A stretch of 31,085 nt of DNA. Origin: a virus. Both the position numbers and the translations under genes were made by a program. This document shows positions 5,847 to 30,401 of this stretch, one piece after another. Numbering within the stretch: the first letter of the stretch is position 1; every line of letters starts with the position of its first letter. The notes below the pieces were generated by a model that worked only from the letters and a program-made list of their open reading frames with translations, ran no database searches and was not told the DNA's origin. Where the stretch lies: positions 1 to 31,085 of the IMG/VR virus record IMGVR_UViG_3300030104_001762. One strand, written 5' to 3'.

Positions 5847-7453
5847 TATCCTCTCCTTCCTAGGTTTCTAAGATTACGTGATGCCTGTGCAAAGTTTGCT
5901 GTAGCAGAATCAAATGCAGATTGTCTTGATTGAAAATCTTTTTCTTCTCCATATATTTGGTCAACAGCTCTTGCTAATCGACCACCAAACAAAGAACTAA
6001 ATCTTTCATTAGTACCACTTAAAGCAAACGGGTCACCAGGTGTTGCTGATGGACCAAGCTCTTGACTTGTCTCAACTTGAAAACTTTTAATTTTATTTCT
6101 TACTAACGAATCTAACATCGTATCATCAGCAAATGGATACTGTTGTTTTAGTTCTTTTTTGTATCCATCAACACTTCCATACTTGTCAAGCCAACCATCA
6201 TATCCAAGTTGTTTTACTTGTGCATCAATATCTTCTCTAATGTTTTGAACAATCATTCCATCTAAATCACGTTTAGTAACTTCTAATAATGAATTAACTA
6301 CTCCTGCTAAAGATTGTGCTTGTGTAAAGCTAATCTTGTCTGAACCACCAAAATAATTTCTAACTGCATTCATAGCTATGTATCCTGCAGATTCTGTATC
6401 ATATTTTGGAATATCAATACTGTAGTTATTAAGTAATCTATTTTCTAAGTCTGTTACATCGTTGTCTAACTCACCAAAAAAGAAATCTCTTATCTCTTTT
6501 TTCTTATCATCTGTAAATGCATACTGGCTTTTATACTGTTTGACACTATCTCCTTGATATATAACTTCACCACTTTGAGGGTTTATAATTACTTCAACTA
6601 TTTCTTCTTCACCAGTCTTTTGGTTCTCTACTACACGAGTAGCAGTTGATAGTGTAAGCAATGCACCTTCTATAGCAAATCCATCATCAAAGTATGGAAC
6701 TCTACCTTCTAAGTTATGTGTAGACATTGCTGCTGTTATAGCTGTACTTGTTGGTATATCCATACTCCCTGATTCAAAACCACCCACTAAGTACCCTGCT
6801 TGGACTAACTTGCTCTGTAAGTTTCTTATATAATCCTCACTTAACATGTCGTCCATAAACAGGGTTGTAATTAGTGGTGTAATATATACAGGATTATCAC
6901 CATATCCCTCACCTGCACCTTTATAACCTAAAGGTGTTCCCAAAGTTCCTTCAAATCCTAAAAACTGTGTTACACCTTGTGTGCCTAATCTTAGTTGTAT
7001 AGCATCATCAGGTGTTAATGGAGGAGGTGGGTCGTTAGGACCTGCACCAGGAAAGATATATTCTCCATCTTCATCTTTATCATGTTCTTCTAATAACCCA
7101 TCATCATTAATAAAATACCCATAAGGTTGTATAAAATTAGGGTCTGTATAATAATTTTTTAAAGCCTCGTCTATTTCAACGGGAGTTAATGCTCTAGGAA
7201 TAACAGTTCCTCCTTGTAGTGCAGGACCTGGTTGGTCTATTGTTCCACCACCTACAACATCACCTTCTTCTGTTCTTTGTTCAAATAATGTATAATCTGT
7301 AATTGGTGTACCACTGGAGTCTATAGCATTTCGTGTTTCACCTGTCTCTGTGTTGTACCATAATGCTTTTGAATAATCAGCAGAAGTAGATGCGTTAAAT
7401 TCTGATACTGCACCTGAATTTGTAAATAAAATTTTTGAAATTAATTTCCACAT
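5846..7453 (-). CDS. Virion protein with peptidoglycan-binding-like segment
   Basis: This 535-residue protein has a low-complexity N-terminal third (residues 60-150, Gly/Pro/Asp-rich with PPPPLTPDD). Residues about 205-250, including YIRNLQSKLVQAGYLVGG and TSTAITAAMSTHNLEG, follow the pattern of a PG_binding_1 repeat (LQ.KL...GY..G....T..AI). The rest is helical. One reading is a wall-binding partner for the adjacent lytic-transglycosylase-like protein. It is translationally coupled to the giant protein upstream (one-base overlap at 7453) and to the transglycosylase downstream (5846). The peptidoglycan-binding assignment is a motif-level reading and could fail against a profile; the virion role is inferred from context. 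Confidence 0.66.
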   Translation of the reverse strand: MWKLISKILFTNSGAVSEFNASTSADYSKALWYNTETGETRNAIDSSGTPITDYTLFEQRTEEGDVVGGGTIDQPGPALQGGTVIPRALTPVEIDEALKNYYTDPNFIQPYGYFINDDGLLEEHDKDEDGEYIFPGAGPNDPPPPLTPDDAIQLRLGTQGVTQFLGFEGTLGTPLGYKGAGEGYGDNPVYITPLITTLFMDDMLSEDYIRNLQSKLVQAGYLVGGFESGSMDIPTSTAITAAMSTHNLEGRVPYFDDGFAIEGALLTLSTATRVVENQKTGEEEIVEVIINPQSGEVIYQGDSVKQYKSQYAFTDDKKKEIRDFFFGELDNDVTDLENRLLNNYSIDIPKYDTESAGYIAMNAVRNYFGGSDKISFTQAQSLAGVVNSLLEVTKRDLDGMIVQNIREDIDAQVKQLGYDGWLDKYGSVDGYKKELKQQYPFADDTMLDSLVRNKIKSFQVETSQELGPSATPGDPFALSGTNERFSSLFGGRLARAVDQIYGEEKDFQSRQSAFDSATANFAQASRNLRNLGRRG

Positions 7454-10400
7454 TATTGTTCTGCCTTAAATATTTGTTGGTTATAAGTATAGCCGTATCT
7501 TATCAATTCATCCTCGTTCTCTCTGAGTATTCTCTCTAATACTGATTCATTAACAAATGTAAACAGTGGATAGTATTTTGCTAACTCTTGTCCTTTTTGT
7601 CTTAATTGGTCTCTAGCTAAAAACCAATTAGCATTAGTTGGGTCTGAACCTACTGCGCCTGTTTCTGTTGACCTTACCTGTAATATATTGTCATAGCTTT
7701 CTAACCAAATGTTCAATGCTTTGATTACAGGCTCGTCTTGTAAATCAGGGTCTGCTGCCATTTGATATGTTTGTTTTAGTAGTGTACCTAAATCAGTAGG
7801 ACTTTCTGTTCTAGGTTTTTCACCATATCCTGGAAAGTAATCAGCTACAGTATTTTTATAAGTAGTAATTAATATTTTACGAATATCTTCATCTGCAACA
7901 TACATAGGACTATTAGGGTCTGTAATGCCTCTTCTATATCTTTCTACAGCCATTCTTCCTGCAGCTTGATTTTGTAATTGTGCAAACTCACCTAAATCTA
8001 AATCTGTTCTAGCTGCATATTGTCCTAAGTAATCATCGTCAAAGGAGTTAACCCAGGATGCCATAATAAATTCATCAGTGCCGATATCAGGTCTGACATA
8101 ATAAAACATATCAGGATATAATTGATACTTATCTTCATTCTCCATTGCATAATCTAATGCTTCATCTGTATAAGGAACTCTCCTTAATTCTTTTGATTTA
8201 GATATTATTAATGCTGTTGGGTCTGCACCAAACAACTGTGTAAATACTTGTGTAGCTACTTGTTCGTCTTCATACTCACCTAGTAATCTTCCATATACAC
8301 TTTGTAATGTATTGAATCCAAATATTCTACCTTCAGGGTCTATACCTCTATCTCTTAAATCTTTAGGATTGACATATAAATCTCCACCTGGTTCTGTTTC
8401 TAGCTCCCATCTAAATGAAGGAGATACAAATGTAAACTGTGCTGCTGATTTAATTAAGTGCATAATTAAAGCATCTTGTTTTACACGTTGTAAAATTTTA
8501 TTCATTTCATCTTGTGACCTAGGTTCTTGACCTTGGGGAATAGCACCACTAATAAGTTTTGCTCTTAATACTTCTTTTTCTGTATTTACAAATGCACGTG
8601 ACCACGATTCAGGACTTGTACTTATAGCAGAACCTAGCTTCTGTATCCATTCAGGTAACAAATAATCGACTGCTTGTTCTACAGTATTGCCTGCAGGTTC
8701 ACCGAATGGAAATATAAACTCATATAAAGCTGATGTTTCTTTCATATTTGGCATCAATGCTTTAGCTGCTACCTGTGCTACTGGACCTACTCCTGGTATT
8801 AATCCACCTGCAACTATGTTTGCAGATGATGTAAATCCAACAGCTCTAAGATTTACTTCACTTCTTGGTGATGCTCCACCTAAGTCTCTTTCTTCTACAT
8901 TGTCAAAAAAGTTTCTAAGTATTGGGTCTATAAGTGGAAATACAAAAACTTCTTCATTAGTAAGTTCATCTGTATATACCATTGGTCTATCATCTGCAGC
9001 ATCTCCACCTAACATATCAAAGTTAAATGGATTACCTTCTTTTAATGTCTCAGTAGATATTTGTAATTTACGTAGTTTTCTAGGATTTTCAGTTAACAAT
9101 CTTGTCCAAGTCTTAGCTATTTCTAAATGAACTTCTGCGAAAGGAAACAACAAAGAATTAGCTTGTGTAAACTGTGACCTATTATTTAAACTATATAACA
9201 ACTCTTCTGTCTCTGTAAGAGCTGTTGACTTTAATAAATCATCAATACTTTCTAATTGGTCTACAGCTATACCTTGACCTTTTGCTTTAGGAACTATAGT
9301 ATCTAAATATTTCCTAGTAGACTCAGGCATAGCTTCCATAATTTGTTTGTTCTTATATAGTGCAGCTAATGTATCAGCTTCAAACTTATCAGCCATACGC
9401 TCTAAATTACGATAGTAAAATTGTTTAAAGGCAGGCGCTCTTGATAGTTTGTTCGTTGGTGTAGACATAAATATATCAAATAGTTTTTCTATAATGCCGT
9501 TGTATGACTTTCTATCAGTATCTTGAATTAGTTTTTTTGATACTTTAACAACATCAGGTCCATTTTCTGCATAATTGGCAAGTATCTTTACTGCTGTATC
9601 AAATTGTGATTCACTGTTAAAACCATTTAGTGGCATAGAAAAACTTCTAGTTTTAGTATTAATTTCTAATTTTTTATCTGCTATCCATTTTATGTAATCT
9701 AATGTTTTGTCACCATCAATTAATTCATACACCATACGTACAGGTAAGTCACCGTCTTTTGCTCCTGCGTTCTTATATACAATACCTTTGTTAATCTCAA
9801 CTATGTATCCTTTTTCTAATGCTTCTTCAAAAGATATAGTCGACAGATTAGGAATAGAGTTTCTATCTAATTTAGGATTTTCTACATACTTTTTAAATCC
9901 TCCACCACCACCAACTTTGTCATATAATCTAGCTGCGTAAGATTGTAAAAATTCTAATGTTCTATCTTTGTCTCCTCTAATTAGATTTCTTCCATTGTTA
10001 GTTACTGCGTCTCCACTACTACTCCAATCTAAATAAGTTCTTTTAGCAATTTGTGCATCTTCTTTTCTACTTAATACAGCAAGTCTTTCTGCAGGTAAAT
10101 TGTCAGTTAAGTAATCAGCTAATTCATCTAATGTAGCAAATGAAGAACGTTGTCTTTGACCATTACCTATTAATGTATTAGCAACTACTACCATCAAATC
10201 ATCATCAGCCATTTGTGCCAACTCAGTTAACCAACCTTTAGAATATTGCCTTCTGCTTTTAGTTCTATTGGTGACAGAATCTCTTTTAATAGTTTTAAAA
10301 AATCTATCTACAGAAGATGCTTCACGCATCATAATACCATTTGAACCACGAGACATTGCTTGTTTAAATAACAACTCTTCATTCATTTGTCTACCTACAA

Positions 10401-13400
10401 TATCAATATCACCTCTTCTAAGTTTGGACATAAACCTACCACCAAGGTTTGTGTTTAATGGAATGTCTAATGCTGTTAATGATTTACTTATAGCTTTACC
10501 TAATCCTTTGTCAGGTTTTAAAACATATGCCATATGAGATACAGGATGTGACCACATGTTTGTCATATCTGCTGCAAACATTCTAAGTTGTTCTTCCATA
10601 ATAACTCTTGTAGTCCAAGCAATTCTTAAAAGAGTAAATGGTTTCCAGGCTTGTTGCATTACATTATTTGCCCATCTAATGTATGCTTTGTTAACTAACT
10701 GTAAACCTTCGTCTGTTGCTCTTGTAGAATAAAACATCTTAGCAAGACTTTTAGTCATAGCATTATTAGTTATATTACCTACGTTCAATGCTGTATCTAT
10801 TTGTTGTGGTGTTGTAAGTCTACTAATTATTTCAAATGATTCATCGTCAATTAATTCTGCAATAGTATCAGACGTAGTAGCATTTAGTGATTTACCTGCT
10901 AACTTTTCATATTCAGTAATTAATTCTTTTTTAGCATTTAATTGCAATTCTTTTATATAAGATGGTTTTACTTTTTTACCTGATGGAGCTTTTACTGGAA
11001 ACTCCCATTTAGATAAAAAGTTTTTAAATTGATTGTTAGTCTTTGCAAAAGAAAGTATAGGATTTCTATCTAAAGATTTTCCAAGCAACTGTGGCAAGTC
11101 TATTCTTTTTAGTCCTGTCAATGTGCTTAAACCTGTTAATTGTAGCAAAGAGTTTCTATATGTTCCTAATACTCTAAAGACTTCATTAGTATCAAACAAT
11201 GGAATGTTACCTACTAACATTTCTGACATTAACATTGCAGTTGGCTGTGCTAACTCTTGATTACCTAAGCTAACCATAAACTCTGCTATTTCATCAGCCT
11301 TGCCTGCTCTAGCTAATCCTTCTAGTTCCTGTAAATTTAGTTCTGTTTTGACCATATCAAATGCTGTATCTGCAGCTCTACTAGATGTTTTAGATGTAGA
11401 AAAACCTACATCAACAATATGGTCTCCAACAAGTGATGTCCAATACTTTCTTGCATCGTTTATTTCACCAACAAATTTTGTAATACCACCTCCTTGCATT
11501 CCTGGATATGCCTTTGATGCCATAAGTTTTTCTACTTCTCCAAATACACCTGGATTTTTTGGTGTACCATCTCCTACAAGTAATTTAAAAAATTCTTCGG
11601 TTTGTCTTAATCTAGAATATGTACCTTGTTCAGCAAACTGATTTAAAATAGCAGCATCAGTTGTTGCAAGTTTTTTATACAAATCTGCTTTAATTTGTTT
11701 TTCAAATGGAAGTGACTTAACAAGTTTCTCCATTTCTTTTAATCCTTGACTATGTGAAGCTGATGTTATAAATGTAGGACTTACTTGACCAAATATTCTT
11801 GATATGGCTGTATCTTTAAATGTACGTTTTGCTACTGCAGCAACTCCTAAGAAGTTACCCATGTCTGATAAATCTACTTTTTTACCATCTCCTGCAATCT
11901 TGCCTACACTACCAACAATCCTACCTGCATTCCTCGATACACTTCCTTTGAATGCATAGCTGTAAGGGTCTAGTCTTTTAGTAATACCACCAGTTCTAAC
12001 TTCCCTAGCAATAGCCTCTGACACATTTCCTACAGTTGGATTATCTAATATAGTACCTAATGTTGAAGGACTAGCTTCTGGCATTATCTGTCTTAAGTTT
12101 TCATAATCTAACCTACCATTAGTAACACCTTCAGATATAAACTCGTATATACCTTTACCTGCTGTTTGATGCCAGGCTTCAAAATCTGTTTTGTTTAAGG
12201 ATGGTTTTATAAATTTTTGTAATCCTGCAAATCTTTTAGCTTCATCAACTTCGTTAGCAAATGCTGCTTTAAAATTAGTAACCATTTCTTCTACATCTTT
12301 TTCTAGTTGCCAAGTTGTTTTAACACCCATAACAGAATCTTCACCTGATTTCTTAACCCATAAAGCTCTACGCTTATCTCTTCTTGCTCTACGTGCTGCT
12401 TTACCTAAAGGTGTCATCCAAGATTTATTAAAAGCTATTTGTTTTGGAGACTTGCCTTTAGCAATCCAAGTATGAACTAATTCGTGCAATATAGTGTTAT
12501 CTACTAAGTCATCCATGTTGTCATATATTTTCTGTGACCAAGCTTTTATATCTGATGATAAGTAGTTAATAAAATCTACAACTCTATCGTCTGAGCTTTT
12601 TATATACTTCGTCATTGCTACACCCATGTCTTCATCAAAGACAACATTCTTTCCAAATTTATTAAAAAATGCATTAAAATCTTTTCCTAAATATTCTCTT
12701 AAGTCTGCAACTTGTCCACCTATCATTCTTTGTACTGCTCTATCAACAAATGCACCACCCATTCCTGGTCTAATACCTTCAACAAATCTACCATCAGGAA
12801 GCATTTCAGCACCTTCATATATCTTTACGTTATTTACATACTTGTTATCAATACCTGTAGTAGCACCTTCACCTATTGCATCTCTTCTTAAAAATCTTTG
12901 AGCTTCAGCACTATTGTTTACTTGAGCGCCTTGTCTACCATTTGCTTTAGCTATATTGTTTAAGTCATCCATTGTATAAATTTCATCACCTTTTAAGATT
13001 GTTTCACCTACATCAACTACAGCTAACTCGTCATACTTACCACTGTCTTTTATAAACTCTTGTAAGCCATCTGATAAGTTAACTCTAGGTACATCGTCTG
13101 AAACTTTTACAACTTGAAATAATCTATTGCCTTGTCCTATAAGTGTTCTAGCACCTGCGTTACTACCTGCAGCAGCAGTTTCACCAACTTTAAAGACTTT
13201 ACCTGCTTTACCTAATTTACCAACCCATGCACCTACTAAGTTTGCAGGGTCTAATCCAAGTGTTACAACACCGTCAATAAGTCCTGATATAAATTTATAT
13301 CTATCTGTTCCTGGCTCTGACATTTGTACAGCAGCAACACGACCAGGACTAATTGTTACTCCTTTATATTTATTAGCTTCTAACTTTTCTCTTTGAGTTC

Positions 13401-14136
13401 CAGTAATATCAAAACCTAATTGACCTTGTATTGTTTTTTCTATAGCAGCTAATTGTCTAGGGTCTTTAATTGTTTGAGATAATTCTCTATATATATCAGT
13501 TTCTCTAGCTAGTGTTGAATTACCAAAGTATCCTCTACCAAGGTTTACTCTGTTACCTTTAGCCATTTCTCTGATAGCATACCCTGCTGTTGTAGGACCT
13601 AAGTCTTTTTTAGCTGTTTCATAATCTTGTCTAAAGTTTGCATATTTTTCTCCACCTAAAGCTAATTCCATAACTGGTTTATCAAAGCCAATCATATTAG
13701 ATAGTGTATGTAAATATGCTAAGTTAACATTCATACCATTGTCTATTAATGACCTAGCAGATGCTTGAAATGGTCTTTTAACTGTAGCTTCTGCTAAAGA
13801 ATCTAAACCAACAAACAAGTTTCTAACTAATCCTCGTCCTGCGCCTTTAGTCTGTTCCCAAAAATTTCTGTTCTTTTCTTTTTCTAATTCTACTTGTCTT
13901 TCTAATAATAAAGATATTTCAGGTGATATAGAGGAAAACCCCATAAGAGCGCTTCCAACCATAATATCCCGACCTAATACATTACCCCACTTGTTTACAA
14001 TGTCTTCTAAATTATTACCTACTTGAGGTTTTTGTCTTATAGTCTGTTTAATAGCATTGTATTTTTGCTCGCGTTCATCAGACTTACCTATAAAATTTTC
14101 TTCTAGGTCAGGGGGTTCATATGCATAAAAAGCCAT
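7453..14136 (-). CDS. Giant 2227-residue internal virion/ejection protein with HELVH zincin motif
   Basis: This is the largest gene in the window. Residues 551-555 are HELVH within NTILHELVHTWIAKGKSP, a zinc-metallopeptidase HExxH signature; a glutamate near 665-669 (IYEFISEG) could be the third ligand. The surrounding 450-700 region may be a protease-like domain. The rest is mainly long amphipathic helix, with a Gly/Ala-rich hydrophobic stretch at about 1767-1790 (ANIVAGGLIPGVGPVAQVAA) that could insert into or cross a membrane. There is no signal peptide. Size and company (wall-active proteins directly downstream, portal upstream) resemble the giant ejected proteins of T7 gp16 or N4 type, but I found no RNA-polymerase motifs. 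No Shine-Dalgarno is obvious; the start lies four bases after the previous stop. Confidence 0.8.
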   Translation of the reverse strand: MAFYAYEPPDLEENFIGKSDEREQKYNAIKQTIRQKPQVGNNLEDIVNKWGNVLGRDIMVGSALMGFSSISPEISLLLERQVELEKEKNRNFWEQTKGAGRGLVRNLFVGLDSLAEATVKRPFQASARSLIDNGMNVNLAYLHTLSNMIGFDKPVMELALGGEKYANFRQDYETAKKDLGPTTAGYAIREMAKGNRVNLGRGYFGNSTLARETDIYRELSQTIKDPRQLAAIEKTIQGQLGFDITGTQREKLEANKYKGVTISPGRVAAVQMSEPGTDRYKFISGLIDGVVTLGLDPANLVGAWVGKLGKAGKVFKVGETAAAGSNAGARTLIGQGNRLFQVVKVSDDVPRVNLSDGLQEFIKDSGKYDELAVVDVGETILKGDEIYTMDDLNNIAKANGRQGAQVNNSAEAQRFLRRDAIGEGATTGIDNKYVNNVKIYEGAEMLPDGRFVEGIRPGMGGAFVDRAVQRMIGGQVADLREYLGKDFNAFFNKFGKNVVFDEDMGVAMTKYIKSSDDRVVDFINYLSSDIKAWSQKIYDNMDDLVDNTILHELVHTWIAKGKSPKQIAFNKSWMTPLGKAARRARRDKRRALWVKKSGEDSVMGVKTTWQLEKDVEEMVTNFKAAFANEVDEAKRFAGLQKFIKPSLNKTDFEAWHQTAGKGIYEFISEGVTNGRLDYENLRQIMPEASPSTLGTILDNPTVGNVSEAIAREVRTGGITKRLDPYSYAFKGSVSRNAGRIVGSVGKIAGDGKKVDLSDMGNFLGVAAVAKRTFKDTAISRIFGQVSPTFITSASHSQGLKEMEKLVKSLPFEKQIKADLYKKLATTDAAILNQFAEQGTYSRLRQTEEFFKLLVGDGTPKNPGVFGEVEKLMASKAYPGMQGGGITKFVGEINDARKYWTSLVGDHIVDVGFSTSKTSSRAADTAFDMVKTELNLQELEGLARAGKADEIAEFMVSLGNQELAQPTAMLMSEMLVGNIPLFDTNEVFRVLGTYRNSLLQLTGLSTLTGLKRIDLPQLLGKSLDRNPILSFAKTNNQFKNFLSKWEFPVKAPSGKKVKPSYIKELQLNAKKELITEYEKLAGKSLNATTSDTIAELIDDESFEIISRLTTPQQIDTALNVGNITNNAMTKSLAKMFYSTRATDEGLQLVNKAYIRWANNVMQQAWKPFTLLRIAWTTRVIMEEQLRMFAADMTNMWSHPVSHMAYVLKPDKGLGKAISKSLTALDIPLNTNLGGRFMSKLRRGDIDIVGRQMNEELLFKQAMSRGSNGIMMREASSVDRFFKTIKRDSVTNRTKSRRQYSKGWLTELAQMADDDLMVVVANTLIGNGQRQRSSFATLDELADYLTDNLPAERLAVLSRKEDAQIAKRTYLDWSSSGDAVTNNGRNLIRGDKDRTLEFLQSYAARLYDKVGGGGGFKKYVENPKLDRNSIPNLSTISFEEALEKGYIVEINKGIVYKNAGAKDGDLPVRMVYELIDGDKTLDYIKWIADKKLEINTKTRSFSMPLNGFNSESQFDTAVKILANYAENGPDVVKVSKKLIQDTDRKSYNGIIEKLFDIFMSTPTNKLSRAPAFKQFYYRNLERMADKFEADTLAALYKNKQIMEAMPESTRKYLDTIVPKAKGQGIAVDQLESIDDLLKSTALTETEELLYSLNNRSQFTQANSLLFPFAEVHLEIAKTWTRLLTENPRKLRKLQISTETLKEGNPFNFDMLGGDAADDRPMVYTDELTNEEVFVFPLIDPILRNFFDNVEERDLGGASPRSEVNLRAVGFTSSANIVAGGLIPGVGPVAQVAAKALMPNMKETSALYEFIFPFGEPAGNTVEQAVDYLLPEWIQKLGSAISTSPESWSRAFVNTEKEVLRAKLISGAIPQGQEPRSQDEMNKILQRVKQDALIMHLIKSAAQFTFVSPSFRWELETEPGGDLYVNPKDLRDRGIDPEGRIFGFNTLQSVYGRLLGEYEDEQVATQVFTQLFGADPTALIISKSKELRRVPYTDEALDYAMENEDKYQLYPDMFYYVRPDIGTDEFIMASWVNSFDDDYLGQYAARTDLDLGEFAQLQNQAAGRMAVERYRRGITDPNSPMYVADEDIRKILITTYKNTVADYFPGYGEKPRTESPTDLGTLLKQTYQMAADPDLQDEPVIKALNIWLESYDNILQVRSTETGAVGSDPTNANWFLARDQLRQKGQELAKYYPLFTFVNESVLERILRENEDELIRYGYTYNQQIFKAEQ

Positions 14137-20270: not shown

Positions 20271-20520
20271 TTTACTATGGTATAGTTCTTATACAAACAT
20301 TTACGAAGCAAACGTGTTACAGGTAAAGAGAGTATCAGGCGCACGAAAGCTAGCTACTAGAATGTTTCTAGGACTGGGATTACCACAAGGCTAGTACCCG
20401 AGGACACGCAAGGTTTGTAAATTAAATTTTTTTCGATAGCTTACGCTATATGCCTGCTATCGCCCGAAACACCATCCCCCCCAAGCGTACAGTAAGAAAG
20501 AGAATAATATCTCTTTTTAC

Positions 20521-20547
20521 TGGACAAGTAAGAGAGTGTGCTATAAT
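20521..20547 (+). promoter_or_regulatory. Candidate extended minus-10 promoter
   Basis: TGCTATAAT at 20539-20547 is a perfect extended minus-10 element (TG-n-TATAAT). TGGACA at 20521-20526 matches five of six bases of the minus-35 consensus with a rather short 15-bp spacer. Transcription would start near 20553-20555, right at a closed stem (next entry). This is the best sigma-70-like promoter I can see in the divergent region. Confidence 0.5.
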
Positions 20548-20552
20548 AAACT

Positions 20553-20625
20553 AGACACTTATCTACACAGGACACTTTATCCTCCTGTAACTGTTATCCC
20601 AGTCAACTGTTCAGGTAAGTGTCAC
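20553..20625 (+). ncRNA. Candidate small structured RNA after the promoter
   Basis: GACACTTA at 20554-20561 pairs with TAAGTGTC at 20616-20623, closing a domain of about 70 bases. Inside, ACAGGA (20567-20572) pairs with TCCTGT (20583-20588), and ACTG (20590-20593) can pair with CAGT (20600-20603). The outer stem begins at the predicted transcription start, as for small RNAs or a capped mRNA leader. It is not a tRNA: there is no D-arm GG, no T-arm and the loop sizes are wrong. No T-run terminator follows, so it may be the 5' end of a longer leader. Confidence 0.35.
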
Positions 20626-20748
20626 GTCTACATTAAATAGTTACCAGTAATATTTTTGAGACTCACATATAACAACCCCCCCACGCCACATTAAATACCC
20701 CCGTAACAAGGCAACCACCTGTTATAGTTATTTATATATAGTCTGTTG

Positions 20749-20766
20749 CCTACCCACCCCACCCCC
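20749..20766 (-). other. G-quadruplex-prone tract on the minus strand
   Basis: On the minus strand the tract reads G5-T-G4-T-G3-TA-GG. Three runs of at least three G plus a final GG, with loops of one or two bases, can form a two- or three-layer quadruplex. It is the densest of several C-runs on the plus strand in this non-coding region. Confidence 0.45.
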
Positions 20767-21037
20767 TATTTCCTCACTACCGTTCGTAAATACCTACATA
20801 ACACTATATACACTTTTATACTACACATACACCCCCCTATGTTTACATTTGTCTAGTATATACATACATATTGTAACCCAATGTATCAAACCTCAGACAT
20901 CCCACCATCATATGTACATTTCCATATACCTACTATATATAGTATATATTTTCTTTCTCTCTTTATATTTCTAGTTATGTCCAGTCTTCTTTCGTTCATT
21001 CCTACCTCGCTTCTTAACTACCTCAGTCTCGTTAACT

Positions 21038-21053
21038 CTCGCCTTCGGGCGAG
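21038..21053. repeat. Perfect hairpin with TTCG tetraloop
   Basis: CTCGCC pairs with GGCGAG across a TTCG loop, an exceptionally stable small hairpin. No T-run follows on either strand, so it is not a classic intrinsic terminator; it could stabilise a leader RNA or mark a processing or protein-binding site. Confidence 0.6.
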
Positions 21054-21336
21054 GTATGTCATTCACTAACTATTCCTATCATATAAATCCCTCCCACGTG
21101 TATGCCATTGTTGTAATCTTTTTCATTGTGTACTCATTAGCTGACGATAATTCGTACATCTACTCCAGTCATACGCTCGCCTAGCTCGCTAGCTCCTTAC
21201 GTACCATTCAAAAGAACAACAATATAAAAATTATTCCTCTCCATTCGTTTCGCCTATATCTACTCGCATCGCTAGCGCTCTAAGTAATAGCTCGTAGATA
21301 TTAACTGCGTAGGCTCAATCTCATTCTACTCACTCC

Positions 21337-21357
21337 CGACTAGGACCAGCCTAGTCG
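21337..21357. repeat. Perfect 8-bp inverted repeat
   Basis: CGACTAGG at 21337-21344 pairs with CCTAGTCG at 21350-21357 around a five-base spacer. It lies about 140 bases upstream of the first early gene, so it could be an operator or a leader hairpin. Function not established. Confidence 0.45.
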
Positions 21358-21412
21358 CTCTTGCCTTCAGCCGAGTGAAGTCGTTCGCTCCAGTTAATAA
21401 TTTATTATGCAT

Positions 21413-21454
21413 ACACTCTCTACACCCAACCTCTCCACAAGAGTGTGAGAGGTT
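21413..21454 (+). promoter_or_regulatory. Possible RNA switch in the leader of the first early gene
   Basis: Two helices compete in the leader. ACACTCT (21413-21419) can pair with AGAGTGT (21440-21446), and AACCTCTC (21428-21435) can pair with GAGAGGTT (21447-21454). The strands interleave with no linker between the two 3' strands, so both cannot form fully together. The second hairpin ends 24 bases before the Shine-Dalgarno of the gene at 21493. A two-state leader acting on translation or transcription is plausible inference. Confidence 0.4.
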
Positions 21455-23608: not shown

Positions 23609-24203
23609 CGCATTCAGAGAAGAAGACACGGTCAATAAGAAGTTTGATAAAAGAACATACTTCGCACGGTCGTGGAGAGAGATGGGTGGTAACTCTGGGG
23701 AAAGCAGTGCAGATAATTTAGACGTACACAATTTTAAGTACGATGCTACATCTTTTCCTGATGCATTAGGTCAATGGATTGCACACGAAATACAAGTTGC
23801 TGTTGGAAATCAAGCTGTAAAATTTGCACAATTTCTTACAGAGGCTTTAGAAGACATGACAATCAAAGACACAAATGCATATGAAGCACACATTAGTTAC
23901 ATTGGCGAAGGGAATAGAGAATTAATAGATAAGGCTTGCAACCAAATTAAGAATGGTAAAGAGCCTAATATGTTTCCTGTTCCACTTGGCTTTATAATTG
24001 AGATTATTGATATGATATTAGAACAAATGATTGAACATAATAATTTTTGGTTTTGGCAAGAGCCTCAGCTAGTAATGATGGGTAATCCTGATATCATCGA
24101 GAATATGTATGTTCAAGCTAAGAATGAAGATGAAGTTGTATCAGATGGTATTGATAGTCTTGAGAATTATCTCAAGAACAAAATTAAAGGAGAAGAGGAA
24201 TGA
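23592..24203 (+). CDS. Early hypothetical protein, 203 residues
   Basis: The gene has AAAGGAG six bases before the ATG. The product begins MPVNFDAFREEDTVNKKFDK, has a mixed middle (HNFKYDATSFPDALGQWIAH) and a long helical C-terminal half with the hydrophobic segment GFIIEIIDMILEQMIEHNNF near residues 132-152, probably a buried helix rather than a membrane span because it holds several Glu and Asp. It ends in KNKIKGEEE. No recognised family or catalytic motif. It is co-transcribed with the small zinc proteins. Confidence 0.72.
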   Translation: MPVNFDAFREEDTVNKKFDKRTYFARSWREMGGNSGESSADNLDVHNFKYDATSFPDALGQWIAHEIQVAVGNQAVKFAQFLTEALEDMTIKDTNAYEAHISYIGEGNRELIDKACNQIKNGKEPNMFPVPLGFIIEIIDMILEQMIEHNNFWFWQEPQLVMMGNPDIIENMYVQAKNEDEVVSDGIDSLENYLKNKIKGEEE

Positions 24204-24427
24204 GTGACGTATACGAATACGTTGATGAAAACAGTAAGATATATGAAGAAGTATTGACTGTGGATTTTACATTCCCAAATGGTACATCACTGAGTGATGC
24301 AGTAAGTCAAATAGATATGTTGGTTAGTCTTGCAGATAATGAGACAAAGATAGAGTTCTATGAACACCAACCAAAGATATATACTAAATCACCTTTGTAT
24401 GAACCTGAAGGAGATTTGTATATGTAA
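24200..24427 (+). CDS. Small acidic hypothetical protein
   Basis: The 75-residue protein begins MSDVYEYVDENSKIYEEVLT at an ATGA overlap with the previous stop; AGGAGAAGAGGA precedes the start. It is acidic, beta-rich in the first 30 residues (EEVLTVDFTFPNG) and helical after. It is the last gene before the structured RNA region. No family recognised. Confidence 0.68.
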   Translation: MSDVYEYVDENSKIYEEVLTVDFTFPNGTSLSDAVSQIDMLVSLADNETKIEFYEHQPKIYTKSPLYEPEGDLYM

Positions 24428-24474
24428 ATATACAAGAGTTACTTACGAGATTAGTACGACCTGGGCTAATCAAT

Positions 24475-24565
24475 GTGGGTAGCTCGTGCCTGTACCGTCT
24501 TACCTTTCTGTGGATTAGTACGTAGCTAATTAAAAAACCAAGAAGGACAGGCACGAGGTACTCAC
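24475..24565 (+). repeat. Unit 0: long imperfect hairpin of the structured RNA
   Basis: An 11-bp perfect helix (24483-24493 with 24547-24557) continues past one G-G mismatch into seven more pairs (24475-24481 with 24559-24565). On the inner side CCTT-CT (24503-24509) pairs with AGAAGG (24541-24546), TGG with CCA, and ATTAG (24514-24518) with CTAAT (24526-24530). The tip repeats the GATTAGTACG of the small hairpin at 24449. Confidence 0.75.
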
Positions 24566-24654
24566 AGCTATAGTACCAACACGCAACAAGCTATTTACGG
24601 AAACTTAATGCCCGATTTAACCTCATTTATTTGAGTAGGGAAGTAGGACAGAAG

Positions 24655-24739
24655 TAGGTAGCTTGTAGCACATAGAGTAAGAGAGTTCCAGCCCATAAGC
24701 TAGCAGGGAACAGGACGACTGTGTGTTACAAGCTATCTA
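24655..24739 (+). repeat. Unit 1: 21-bp tandem hairpin
   Basis: The left arm 24655-24675 (core TAGCTTGTAGCACATA) pairs with the right arm 24719-24739 (core TGTGTTACAAGCTATC) over 21 positions with three G.U wobbles. The 43-base loop contains GTTCC (24685-24689) pairing with GGAAC (24707-24711). Confidence 0.8.
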
Positions 24740-24784
24740 TTAGTAGGAGCTACATTTACAGCCCTGTTTAGTAGTAACCGAAAG

Positions 24785-24910
24785 TAGATAGCTTGTAGCA
24801 CATACCAATGTTGAAAGAAAGGTTGGAACTCGTGTACAAAGCGAGGAAAGGCGATATAAACATACAAAACTTCCAGTTTCGCCCACTATGTGTGTGTTAC
24901 AAGCTATCTA
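24785..24910 (+). repeat. Unit 2: 21-bp tandem hairpin
   Basis: The left arm 24785-24805 pairs with the right arm 24890-24910 over 21 positions with two G.U wobbles. Relative to unit 1 the innermost pair is C-G instead of G-C and position 4 is A-U instead of G.U. The 84-base loop can form GGCGA/TCGCC (outer) and AAACT-TCC-AGTTT (24867-24879). Confidence 0.8.
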
Positions 24911-24933
24911 TCGATAGCAGAAAGAGAGGACTT

Positions 24934-25245
24934 ATGAAATATAACATAGGCGAAACAGTAGAAAACCTACCTGCAAAAGGAGGAGTATTTGGCACAGGTA
25001 TGTCAACACTTCTTATGAGACGTGGGTGGGATGTTCTAATGGAAAACAATCCTAACAGATGGGTTGTGTTAGACCAACAAACTAATACTAAAGCTAAAAA
25101 AGGTGGAGCTTTTTGGACAAGAGCGAAGCAATACAATACAAGGTATTACACTGATGGCTACCAATTTGCTGTTAGAAATGTAGAAGGTATTGTAACATTC
25201 TTCGGAAGATACACACCTGAACTAAAAATAAAGAAAGAGAGTTAA
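24934..25245 (+). CDS. Hypothetical protein following the structured RNA
   Basis: The 103-residue protein begins MKYNIGETVENLPAKGGVFG. I chose the ATG at 24934 because GAGAGGA stands five bases upstream; an upstream ATG at 24808 would add 42 codons that lie inside the unit-2 hairpin and are better explained as RNA. The product is basic with Gly-rich turns and aromatic beta strands (GYQFAVRNVEGIVTFFGRY), and RRGWDVLMENNPNRWVVLDQ in the middle. No family recognised. A palindrome 20 bases upstream (24906-24917) may influence ribosome access. Confidence 0.7.
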   Translation: MKYNIGETVENLPAKGGVFGTGMSTLLMRRGWDVLMENNPNRWVVLDQQTNTKAKKGGAFWTRAKQYNTRYYTDGYQFAVRNVEGIVTFFGRYTPELKIKKES

Positions 25246-25835: not shown

Positions 25836-25855
25836 TTAAGGAAATGGAGAATAAA

Positions 25856-26542
25856 ATGGATAATTGTTGGACACTATTCAACGAAATAATTGGCAACTCA
25901 GAGAGGGTTTTACTCTATGGGATGCCAGGCACAGGTAAAACATACCAAGCTGTAAAGACTAACGTGCCTAATAAGAAAGAAGTTTACAGCACAACCTTGA
26001 CAGTGGATAGCTCTGCGTCAGAGATTATCGGTCATTATATACCTAATGAAAAAGGTACATTTGATTGGAATGATGGCGTTGGTATCAGAGCTTGGAGAGA
26101 AGGTACACGTCTTGTACTCAACGAGATAGACCACGCAGGACCTGATGTTACATCAGTATTGCACGCTATCTTAGATGACAGTGACATTGCACGTTTCACT
26201 CTACCTAATCAAGATAAAGAGTTGGTACAACCTGCAAGTGGTTTCAATGTTGTAGCCACTATGAATGGTAAGCCTGAAGATTTGCCTGAGGCATTGGCTG
26301 ATAGGTTTACTGTAAAGATTGATATCAACGAAGTACATCCCGAAGCTATTGAAACTCTTCCTAAAGAGTACAAGGGTGCTTATGCAAAGGAACAAGACGG
26401 TGGACTACCTATGTCTATCAGAGCTTGGAAAGAATTTGCTAAGTTAGTTCAAATGGGTATACAACAGGAGACTGCAGCACGTGTGTGTTTTGGTTACTAT
26501 GCTAGTGACGTTATTAGCAGTTTAGAGATGCAAGATGTTTAG
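25856..26542 (+). CDS. MoxR/CobS-like AAA+ ATPase
   Basis: The 228-residue ATPase has Walker A GMPGTGKT (residues 22-29), Walker B VLNEID (87-92), sensor 1 VVATMN (132-137) and the arginine-finger segment ALADRF (146-151). The stretch EIIGHYIPNEKGTFDWNDGV before Walker B matches the G-x-Y-x-P ... F-x-W-x-D-G pattern of the MoxR/CobS (AAA_5) group. GGAG six bases upstream favours the ATG at 25856 over 25844. The family forms hexameric remodelling or metal-insertion motors that work with a VWA-domain partner; the next gene, overlapping by eight bases, is such a partner. The phage substrate is unknown. Confidence 0.9.
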   Translation: MDNCWTLFNEIIGNSERVLLYGMPGTGKTYQAVKTNVPNKKEVYSTTLTVDSSASEIIGHYIPNEKGTFDWNDGVGIRAWREGTRLVLNEIDHAGPDVTSVLHAILDDSDIARFTLPNQDKELVQPASGFNVVATMNGKPEDLPEALADRFTVKIDINEVHPEAIETLPKEYKGAYAKEQDGGLPMSIRAWKEFAKLVQMGIQQETAARVCFGYYASDVISSLEMQDV

Positions 26543-28043
26543 GTTAAGAAAACCTAAGGAGCGTAAGCAACTTCTTGGATTAGCACTGAACGATAGTGAT
26601 TGGGTGGTAGAGAAATCTACCACTCTCGCTATTGACCACGAGAACAAAACAATAGGCACACCTATGTACGAAGTAGATGGAGAGCTAACTAAAAATTTAC
26701 ACAAGCTAATGGCTGTTGTGCAAACCAAGTATGGTAAGCCACGTAAGTTAGTTGGTGTCAAGCATATGACTAAGTACGTAGACATTGCAATGAATATGTC
26801 TATCTATTGGTACATTGTGAAGAAAGCTGATAAGTTTCTTCCTGCACGATGGACTGCTAGAGGTAGAAATACTATTCATCACAATGTTCTTTGGTACTAT
26901 AGAAACACACTTGGCAGAACAAATGATGAGACACTAAGGAAATTTATTGTCGACACGTTGTCTAGCTCTGCAAAGATGGGAAGAATAGAGTGGGGAAACC
27001 TTGCACATTACTTATCTAATATGCCTGGAACTATAGAAGAAGTGTTATCTCTTAGCAGATATACTCTTATGTCACGGCTCGAAGAGACAATGGAGACTAC
27101 CGATGCAGTTGTAGTAGTTAAAGAATGGAATACGTTTCTTGATGTACTAGCTACTGCATACAAAATGGTGTGGTCGACACGTAAGGATGCAAAGATTGTT
27201 CCTAACAAAAAGATAAAACAAGTCGCAGAGTATTTATACAATGAGCTTGAGGATATGTCTAACAAAGATATTATCTTGCCAACGTCTTTTCTTGAAGAAT
27301 ATGATATGGAACAAGATGGACTTGGTGTGCTTACTGATGAAGATATGAGTGATGTAAATAATACAGTCATGGGCAATATGGCACGTAGAACAGGTGAAGA
27401 AGCTAAGTGGGGTGTTATGAAAATTGACAATCCTGAACTTACGCAAAGGTTGCCTGTCAAAGTACAAGCTGTAGCAAAGAAGAAATCTGATACAGGTATT
27501 AATCCAAGAGCAATGCACAGATTTACTACAGATAGAAAGGTATTCACGAACAAGACTAAAAGAAATGGTGGCACTTTACTGATTGATGGCAGTGGCTCTA
27601 TGCATTTTGATTCTGAAGATATCGAAAACCTTGTACATATATTACCTGCATCTACAGTTGCTATGTATCAAGGTTTAGTTGATGATGATTTAGCAGATAT
27701 TGAATGGAAAGAGACTGACATTGTACCTACTGGTACGCTCGGTATTCTAGCTAGCAAAGGTAAGTGGGTAGAAGAAATACCAAAATATGGCTACAACAAT
27801 ATTATTGATGGACCTGCTATGGACTGGTTGGGTAAACAACAAGAGCCACGTATCATTATTACTGATATGCAAGTATCAGGTATTTGCAAGGATGATAACT
27901 ATGGTACTCCTGTACCAGTACCTGACTTTAATCCTGAACTAACTATTGATGCCTTGAAAAAAGTTAAAGAGTATAATATTATTGTTATACCTACAGTAGA
28001 AAAAGCAGTAGAGTGGGCTAAAGCCTACGTAAAACAAGCGTAG
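26535..28043 (+). CDS. VWA-domain partner of the MoxR-like ATPase (CobT-like)
   Basis: This 502-residue protein has a C-terminal von Willebrand A domain. GGTLLIDGSGSMHF carries the MIDAS D-x-S-x-S (Asp351, Ser353, Ser355), and PRIIITDMQVSG (about 438-449) is the second acidic MIDAS loop. Residues 1-330 are helical with no known motif; residues 255-300 are acidic, comparable to the acidic region before the VWA domain in CobT and BchD. Its ATG lies inside the last codons of the ATPase gene, which implies coupled synthesis. MoxR/VWA pairs mature or remodel protein complexes or insert metals; which process this one serves is not evident. Confidence 0.88.
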   Translation: MFRLRKPKERKQLLGLALNDSDWVVEKSTTLAIDHENKTIGTPMYEVDGELTKNLHKLMAVVQTKYGKPRKLVGVKHMTKYVDIAMNMSIYWYIVKKADKFLPARWTARGRNTIHHNVLWYYRNTLGRTNDETLRKFIVDTLSSSAKMGRIEWGNLAHYLSNMPGTIEEVLSLSRYTLMSRLEETMETTDAVVVVKEWNTFLDVLATAYKMVWSTRKDAKIVPNKKIKQVAEYLYNELEDMSNKDIILPTSFLEEYDMEQDGLGVLTDEDMSDVNNTVMGNMARRTGEEAKWGVMKIDNPELTQRLPVKVQAVAKKKSDTGINPRAMHRFTTDRKVFTNKTKRNGGTLLIDGSGSMHFDSEDIENLVHILPASTVAMYQGLVDDDLADIEWKETDIVPTGTLGILASKGKWVEEIPKYGYNNIIDGPAMDWLGKQQEPRIIITDMQVSGICKDDNYGTPVPVPDFNPELTIDALKKVKEYNIIVIPTVEKAVEWAKAYVKQA

Positions 28044-29654: not shown

Positions 29655-30401
29655 ATGCCTAATTTTAATTTAGACGAATATGAATTAGTCGAAGATAGAC
29701 TTAAAGCATATTGGAAAGATAATCCAAAAGGTAAAATCACAACAGACGTAGTACACATAACTGAAGATGGTTCGTGTGTAACTATAAAAGCATATGTATA
29801 TAGAGACGGAGAAGTTGTCTCTACTGGTATAGCTCAAGAAACTAAAGGCGATGGCTTTGCAAATAAAACATCTTGGATGGAAAATTGTGAAACATCTGCT
29901 ATAGGTAGAGCTTTAGCTAACTGGATGTATCAGGGTAGTAATAAGAAACGTCCAAGCCAACAAGAGATGCGCAAAGTCGAAACCTCATCACAGGTGGCAA
30001 AAAAATCAGAGGGAAAGTCAGAGGGTGTTAAGCCCCCTGTCTCTACATCTTCTGACAATCCCGTAAAGGTAGTTAAAGAAGCAGGGTTTGGTGATGCTAA
30101 ACAAGCTAAACATCCTGATGGTAAACCTGCTATAAATGATTCAGGTCTTTTATGTCCTTGTGGTTCAGGAGTTAAATACTATACAGCTCAAGAAAAAAAC
30201 AAACCTAACAGTCCTGACTTTAGATGTCAAGCAATGGGCAACTGTACTGCAGGAGATACTGTAGATGGTAAAGTATTCGCTAAGTCTTGGTGGATGGACA
30301 ATAAAGCTACACCTGAAGAGTGGAAAGACTATGCTGCTGCAAAGAATGGTATTAAGTTACCTGACCCTAAGACACTTGATGATGGGGATTTACCTTTCTA
30401 A
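29655..30401 (+). CDS. Putative ssDNA-annealing/binding recombination protein
   Basis: AGGAGG five bases upstream supports the ATG at 29655. The N-terminal domain (residues 1-95) has GKITTDVVHITEDGSCVTIK, VVSTGIAQETKGDG and ENCETSAIGRALANW, a pattern I associate with phage single-strand annealing proteins of the Erf/Rad52-like and DUF1071 type. A linker (95-160) leads to a possible zinc site (Cys167, Cys169, Cys191, Cys197), and the protein ends LDDGDLPF, close to the acidic SSB tip that recruits replication proteins. Together these suggest a protein that binds or anneals ssDNA during replication or recombination. The family call is moderate. Confidence 0.7.
   Translation: MPNFNLDEYELVEDRLKAYWKDNPKGKITTDVVHITEDGSCVTIKAYVYRDGEVVSTGIAQETKGDGFANKTSWMENCETSAIGRALANWMYQGSNKKRPSQQEMRKVETSSQVAKKSEGKSEGVKPPVSTSSDNPVKVVKEAGFGDAKQAKHPDGKPAINDSGLLCPCGSGVKYYTAQEKNKPNSPDFRCQAMGNCTAGDTVDGKVFAKSWWMDNKATPEEWKDYAAAKNGIKLPDPKTLDDGDLPF

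Follow-up and report, generated by a model that had tools for sequence, protein, structure and literature searches.

Positions 24428-24933 of the IMG/VR virus record IMGVR_UViG_3300030104_001762 (31,085 nt; this whole stretch of DNA is called the window here) look like part of a system of exchangeable RNA cassettes in phages that has yet to be named. In each cassette, some 20-23 bp of helix, or about two turns of A-form RNA, surround an interior of roughly 20-150 nt. Comparison of related sequences establishes that the helix is maintained by selection at the RNA level and that interiors have been swapped between sites and between phages. Our preferred reading, in which we place about even confidence, is that three intercistronic RNA hairpin cassettes stand in a row here, members of a large family in one phage clade, and that they would be processed or stabilized in the manner of RNase III stalks and swapped through homologous recombination.

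Three hairpins in a gene-free stretch

An earlier note had reported two tandem hairpins at this locus. Both are real: their arms (24655-24675/24719-24739 and 24785-24805/24890-24910) pair at all of their 21 positions when G.U is counted and enclose loops of differing length (43 and 84 nt), but the locus comprises three hairpins (20-22 bp) plus a covarying linker (Table 1). Reading the two copies against each other, we found that the innermost pair reads G-C in one copy but C-G in its counterpart, and that position 4 is G.U in one and A-U in the other, as had been claimed. That pairing is kept while bases change is borne out by the relatives described below, whereas HP2 and HP3 alone provide one true two-sided change. 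The stem variant of HP1 is GTAGCTCGTGCC/GGCACGAGGTAC, and homologues of this hairpin occur in L003 and, with altered arms, in L131. The interior of HP2 is also found in L011 and L053 (93% identical), with a related interior in L044, and an exact search with the HP3 interior retrieved only four contigs (L062, L075, L079 and L085), in other contexts and too few for covariation there. The short stem of the linker is formed by 24749-24753/24771-24775, and about 13 nt separate the end of HP3 from the Shine-Dalgarno-like site.

Table 1 Features of the hairpin locus and of a possible agent of exchange, in window coordinates
Feature	Position	Strand	Remarks
Upstream gene	24200-24427	+	75 aa, family F6; in about 33 related loci, often adjoining hairpin cassettes
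Hairpin 1 (HP1)	24474-24566	+	Arms 24474-24493 / 24547-24566; interior 53 nt
3'-arm remnant	24586-24598	+	ACAAGCTATTTAC; 5' partner absent
Hairpin 2 (HP2)	24654-24740	+	Full cassette 87 nt, GTAGGTAGCTTGTAGCACAT...TGTGTTACAAGCTATCTAT
Structured linker	24742-24782	+	AGTAGGA-[GCTAC]-..CCCTGT..-[GTAGT]-AACCGAA
Hairpin 3 (HP3)	24784-24911	+	Full cassette 128 nt
Shine-Dalgarno-like GAGAGG	24924-24929	+	Precedes ATG at 24934; from sequence
Downstream gene	24934-25245	+	103 aa; no Pfam or PHROG match
Candidate single-strand annealing protein	29655-30401	+	Rad52/Erf/Mgm101-like by family; possible agent of exchange

The description of the stretch as gene-free holds, the only overlapping open reading frames being a mechanical upstream extension of the gene at 24934 (to 24808) and a 56-aa frame on the minus strand. 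The extension is not conserved: in L003 the sequence beneath it is replaced, and the gene itself is 88% identical. On the plus strand, a 518-nt stretch folds to -170.4 kcal/mol, compared with -122.7 +/- 6.2 kcal/mol for dinucleotide shuffles (z -7.7, none of 100 shuffles being as low), and for the minus strand z was only -4.5. We find support for the first proposal in its main points: a structured RNA not described before, on the plus strand, placed in a non-structural gene block and conserved in its stems rather than its loops. Rfam searches detected no family in the window at the gathering threshold, and at E<=10 the region 24200-25000 gave chance-level matches only, none of them to GOLLD, ROOL, OLE or IMES, the models that the note had singled out. 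ARAGORN made no tRNA or tmRNA call in the window or in 25 loci, no sigma-70-like site was present on the plus strand inside 24428-24933, and among 50,697 INPHARED records of named phages only chance DNA matches to 24428-24945 were found.

Elsewhere in the window, 1.1 kb with few convincing open reading frames lie between divergent gene blocks (20344-21445), a possible control or origin region. A single 2227-aa protein (7453-14136) takes up a fifth of the record and has counterparts at the corresponding place in L205 (2269 aa) and L202 (1765 aa).

Conservation of stem, linker and interiors

Cassettes for the covariation analysis were gathered by their lower arms alone, pairing being no criterion. 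The 47 non-redundant arm pairs so obtained had 94.3% of their cells paired, and two-sided changes appeared at 15 of the 22 stem pairs. The covariation score of this alignment, which was made gapless by replacing the interiors with GAAA, was 0.447, compared with 0.188 for shuffles (0/500), whose statistics ignore relatedness, and with 0.05-0.14 when the partner arm was slid by 1-3 columns. Upper stems are replaced wholesale among relatives with pairing intact; among mutually divergent upper arms, 8/8 positions were paired in 10 of 14, against 5% with shuffled partners. In 100 non-redundant modules, selected by a filter that included positions 11-18 and left positions 19-24 outside, pairing was 98-100% at positions 1-20, followed by 0.90, 0.82, 0.64 and 0.45 and then background, so that it ends sharply at about 22 bp and is near background by position 24. 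Distant members keep the stem length (20-25 bp) with unrelated sequence.

The same 100 modules carry G.U at positions 1, 5, 15 and 20 in 75-91% of cases. A conserved G.U would be a G.T mismatch in DNA, and therefore the stems are explained neither by a cruciform nor by gene conversion between the arms; because homogenization of the arms at the DNA level would erase such mismatches, the fixed wobbles argue for selection on RNA.

The HP2-HP3 linker is a recurrent element of the form AGTARGA-[stem]-CCCTGT-[stem']-RACYGAA, the 5-bp stem of which covaries over 30 distinct copies (score 0.801 versus 0.335, 0/500, in an alignment made gapless by cutting out loops). The interiors are hypervariable, with about 100 unrelated ones. 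One interior family (14 members) has 12 pairs, of which 98.2% of cells are paired and 7 of 12 show two-sided change. Pairs kept by compensatory change, the mark of a structured non-coding RNA, were accordingly found for the stem, the linker and one interior family, by a test that ignores phylogeny. Overall, interiors fold no better than windows drawn at random from their own genomes (mean z -0.66 versus -0.55, p 0.16), and in view of this lack of excess stability most interiors could be passengers; comparative evidence establishes structure for some of them only.

Several interiors contain hairpins resembling a tRNA T-arm, with GGTTCAAATCC or GGTTGGAATCC. One such hairpin (GTAGGTTCAAATCCTACC and variants) was seen in the interiors of L024 (3224-3367), L004 (9251-9354), L036, L121, L046 and L032. 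We dropped a tRNA-like reading of these motifs, as ARAGORN was negative in the 25 loci. A second recurrent inner motif, TAGGn5-6GGAAACGC, is closed by differing complementary stems in L082, L091, L097, L110 and L142 (1934, plus strand). The sub-motif TAGG...GGAAACGC was set aside as evidence, its 9 distinct matches versus 2 in a reversed control being too few.

Distribution among phages and exchange of cassettes

Exact copies of the 5' arm GTAGNTAGCTTGTAGCACA were found in at least 119 stretches of viral contigs in IMG/VR, nearly always with the 3' arm TGTGTTACAAGCTATCTAT 48-200 nt downstream, and in bacterial and archaeal genomes (257 Gb) the 5' arm had one exact match (L123), which we take as chance. 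Homologues of window genes were present in 106 of the 119 stem-arm loci listed, indicating that the arm belongs to one broad phage clade. Members of this clade are uncultured, have genomes of about 41 kb and encode an SU10-type capsid protein, a MoxR-like ATPase, a metallophosphoesterase and an Erf/Rad52-like annealing protein. For the phosphoesterase, the closest relatives in named phages are those of Streptomyces phage Dagobah (44%) and Actinomycetia phage DSL-LC01 (35%), and with a G+C content of 36% one may reasonably guess at a low-GC actinobacterial host. In a set of 80 loci anchored on MoxR, and hence chosen without the stem, 37 had at least one cassette within 6 kb, compared with 0 in the reversed-sequence control. 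The cassette family is present across many metagenomes and is apparently restricted to this one clade. In 18 long records the cassettes are gathered at one place, within about 1.2 kb. The MoxR-like AAA ATPase is followed by a 502-aa protein without a Pfam match, assumed to be a VWA-type partner, and the two form a conserved pair (family F2) in the window (25844-28043) and in about 54 related loci; in many members this pair lies downstream of the hairpins.

One view of the turnover of cassettes is provided by L003, where the locus has the same neighbors as in the window (76% and 88% amino-acid identity) and consists of HP1 and one hairpin of the HP2/3 type. The HP2 unit is wholly absent, the junction lying at ACAAGCTAT, a sequence common to 3' arms, and corresponding to the remnant at 24586-24598; the interior of the remaining hairpin is unrelated to that of either HP2 or HP3. 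On a larger scale, 20 cassette pairs have the same flanks around unrelated interiors, and 67 pairs have a common interior with neither flank shared. Concordance of the outermost 3' arm alleles was 1.0 and 1.0 for cassettes at the same site and 0.86 and 0.70, equal to background, for those sharing an interior (modest numbers of non-independent pairs, 20 by site and 70 by interior), and alleles of the inner arms go with the interior. As outer-arm alleles track the site and inner-arm alleles the interior, the exchange points most likely fall in the conserved lower stem, judging from these allele patterns.

Annealing proteins of the Rad52/Erf/Mgm101 type are known agents of recombination at short homologies, and the phage's own such protein may drive the exchange during co-infection. 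Its family comprises 68 proteins, and 8 of 16 members match the PHROG 'single strand annealing protein' (best 3.8e-10); the window's own copy also has a weak SEC-C motif.

Proposed function and relation to known systems

Cassettes lie mostly between co-directional genes: in mechanical ORF calls, the next gene was on the same strand as the cassette in 111 cases and on the opposite strand in 28. They occur in 74 flanking-gene contexts, and a terminator follows within 350 nt in only 3 of 171. This co-orientation, the diversity of contexts and the rarity of terminators together suggest that cassettes are probably untranslated parts of polycistronic messages. Strong intrinsic terminators were seen after two minus-strand arrays, one in L091 and one in L093 (reverse-complement positions near 8750 and near 1741, respectively); between ACGCCCCC..GGGGGCGTTTTTTTT and ACACCCCC..GGGGGTGTTTTTTTT there is a compensated change from G-C to A-U.

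A two-turn helix between cistrons is a textbook RNase III substrate, and the cassettes have the corresponding form, an uninterrupted helix of 20-23 bp with a sharp end, among co-oriented genes with few terminators. We propose that the cassettes are transcribed within a polycistronic early mRNA, where the helix would be a substrate of host RNase III or of another reader of double-stranded RNA, and that cutting or stabilizing the message may free the interior, as happens at T7 RNase III sites and in the processing stalks of rRNA. The two grounds for this putative cleavage are helix length and intercistronic position. Processing or stabilization of the message with release of the interior is the best single mechanism by our analysis, and we give it about an even chance. 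Speaking against it, 19 phage records, some of them perhaps fragments, yielded no phage RNase III, and a plain processing site would need neither a conserved lower-stem sequence nor about 100 interiors.

The chief rival, which we consider possible with perhaps half the confidence given to processing, is that the cassettes carry trans-acting small RNAs, the constant stem being a scaffold and the swappable interior the part that confers specificity for varied host targets, for example defense systems or tRNA-directed nucleases. An arms race would then keep the diversity, as for exchangeable tail-fiber parts. This would accommodate the many unrelated interiors on one constant stem, their movement as units between phages, the helices preserved by compensatory change in the linker and in at least one family of interiors, and the T-arm-like hairpins; against it, interiors overall are no more stable than background, the 25 loci gave no tRNA call, and the cassettes lie in operons rather than as stand-alone RNA genes. 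An equally tentative extension is a combinatorial repertoire, in which a rack of constant-stem cassettes at one locus would draw structured interiors from a shared pool through lower-stem recombination, every interior, once freed, having a different host target.

Cis-acting leaders, which would tune how the immediately following gene is translated or how stable its message is, as proposed for the extended start-associated sequences (ESAS), appear rather unlikely to us. The earlier note had suggested a complex leader for the gene at 24934, and the position of HP3 just before its Shine-Dalgarno-like site fits this, as does the finding that about a quarter of cassettes are located within 40 nt of the next ORF. 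A gene-specific regulator, however, is hard to reconcile with distances to the next gene that range from 0 to more than 500 nt, with the same cassettes in 74 gene contexts and with unrelated cassettes in one gene context in different phages. The occurrence of the same interior within unrelated flanks could also point to non-autonomous mobile DNA of the MITE or REP type, with a transposase or recombinase reading the inverted repeats and RNA pairing as a by-product; GTAG, reminiscent of REP elements, stands at the foot of the 5' arm. We judge this improbable. G.T mismatches are conserved at four fixed stem positions, orientation relative to genes is preferred, and upper stem and interior vary freely, whereas in a transposon the terminal repeats would be the conserved part. 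The exchange points, moreover, lie inside the arms, and outer-arm alleles stay with the site. In 19 phage records, some of them perhaps fragments, we found no cognate enzyme of MITE or REP-RAYT elements, that is, no Y1 transposase (PF01797) and no tyrosine (PF00589) or serine (PF00239) recombinase, nor a reverse transcriptase, although a host enzyme could act in trans. Least credible, to the point of being nearly negligible, is a single giant ornate RNA of divergent sequence in the GOLLD/ROOL class, which the earlier note had named as a possibility; phage origin, a length of about 500 nt and strong folding would fit it. Against it stand the lack of a match to the Rfam models of those RNAs at E<=10, the absence of a tRNA island (0 tRNA genes in the window) and an architecture of independent hairpins, the number, order and interiors of which vary by phage, unlike a fixed global fold.

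Structured non-coding RNAs of phages from uncultured hosts are little mapped, and here the exchange points can be read from sequence and the helix is statistically strong. If the interiors act on the host, the cassettes would be a new route of phage diversification, and under the repertoire reading an RNA counterpart of exchangeable tail fibers or of protein cassettes for defense evasion; if they are only processing hairpins, they would still show modules being exchanged within operons in an unusual way. In either case, the cassettes provide a ready test system, with a constant stem and a variable interior, and candidate families for Rfam.

Among known systems, the RNase III sites in early mRNAs of T7-like phages and the rRNA stalks are intercistronic double-stranded RNA, and the stalks enclose RNA that is freed by cutting. 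The cassettes resemble both in their roughly two helical turns, co-directional genes and lack of terminators. To our knowledge, T7 RNase III sites are not exchangeable cassettes and have small loops, whereas the units described here are exchangeable, have larger interiors, and their cleavage by RNase III is putative. The promoter early stem-loops (PeSLs) of T4-like phages are, as summarized in PMC4503421 (citing Arbiol 2010 and Comeau 2014), promoter-terminator composites between which genes are exchanged. Going by that summary, PeSLs share with our cassettes the repetition of stem-loops in phage early regions and the provision of homology for modular shuffling; here, a terminator is nearly always lacking, the plus strand of 24428-24933 has no sigma-70-like site, and it is the RNA inside the hairpin that is exchanged, so we do not class the cassettes with them. 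We set aside TIGR guide arrays, the subject of PMC12045711, since our cassettes are long hairpins without short interspaced guides. GOLLD and ROOL, likewise large, structured and non-coding phage RNAs, have a fixed global fold, assemble into nanocages and are often, not always, near tRNA islands (PMC12286853), features from which the independent hairpins of the window depart. In the open-access literature searched, we found no account of hairpin stems whose RNA interiors are exchanged as cassettes. Among repeats described in actinophages, the nearest are the ESAS of cluster K mycobacteriophages, which have inverted repeats of 17 bp with a spacer of 4-13 bp and are tied to gene families and to the 13-bp SAS at the start codon (PMC3203893). 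Both are multi-copy, intergenic families of inverted repeats with a variable spacer, found near translation starts in one phage lineage, but the cassettes, compared by spacer and position rather than by SAS sequence, fall outside ESAS: their distance to the start codon varies, their interiors of 20-150 nt swap between sites, and their stems covary.
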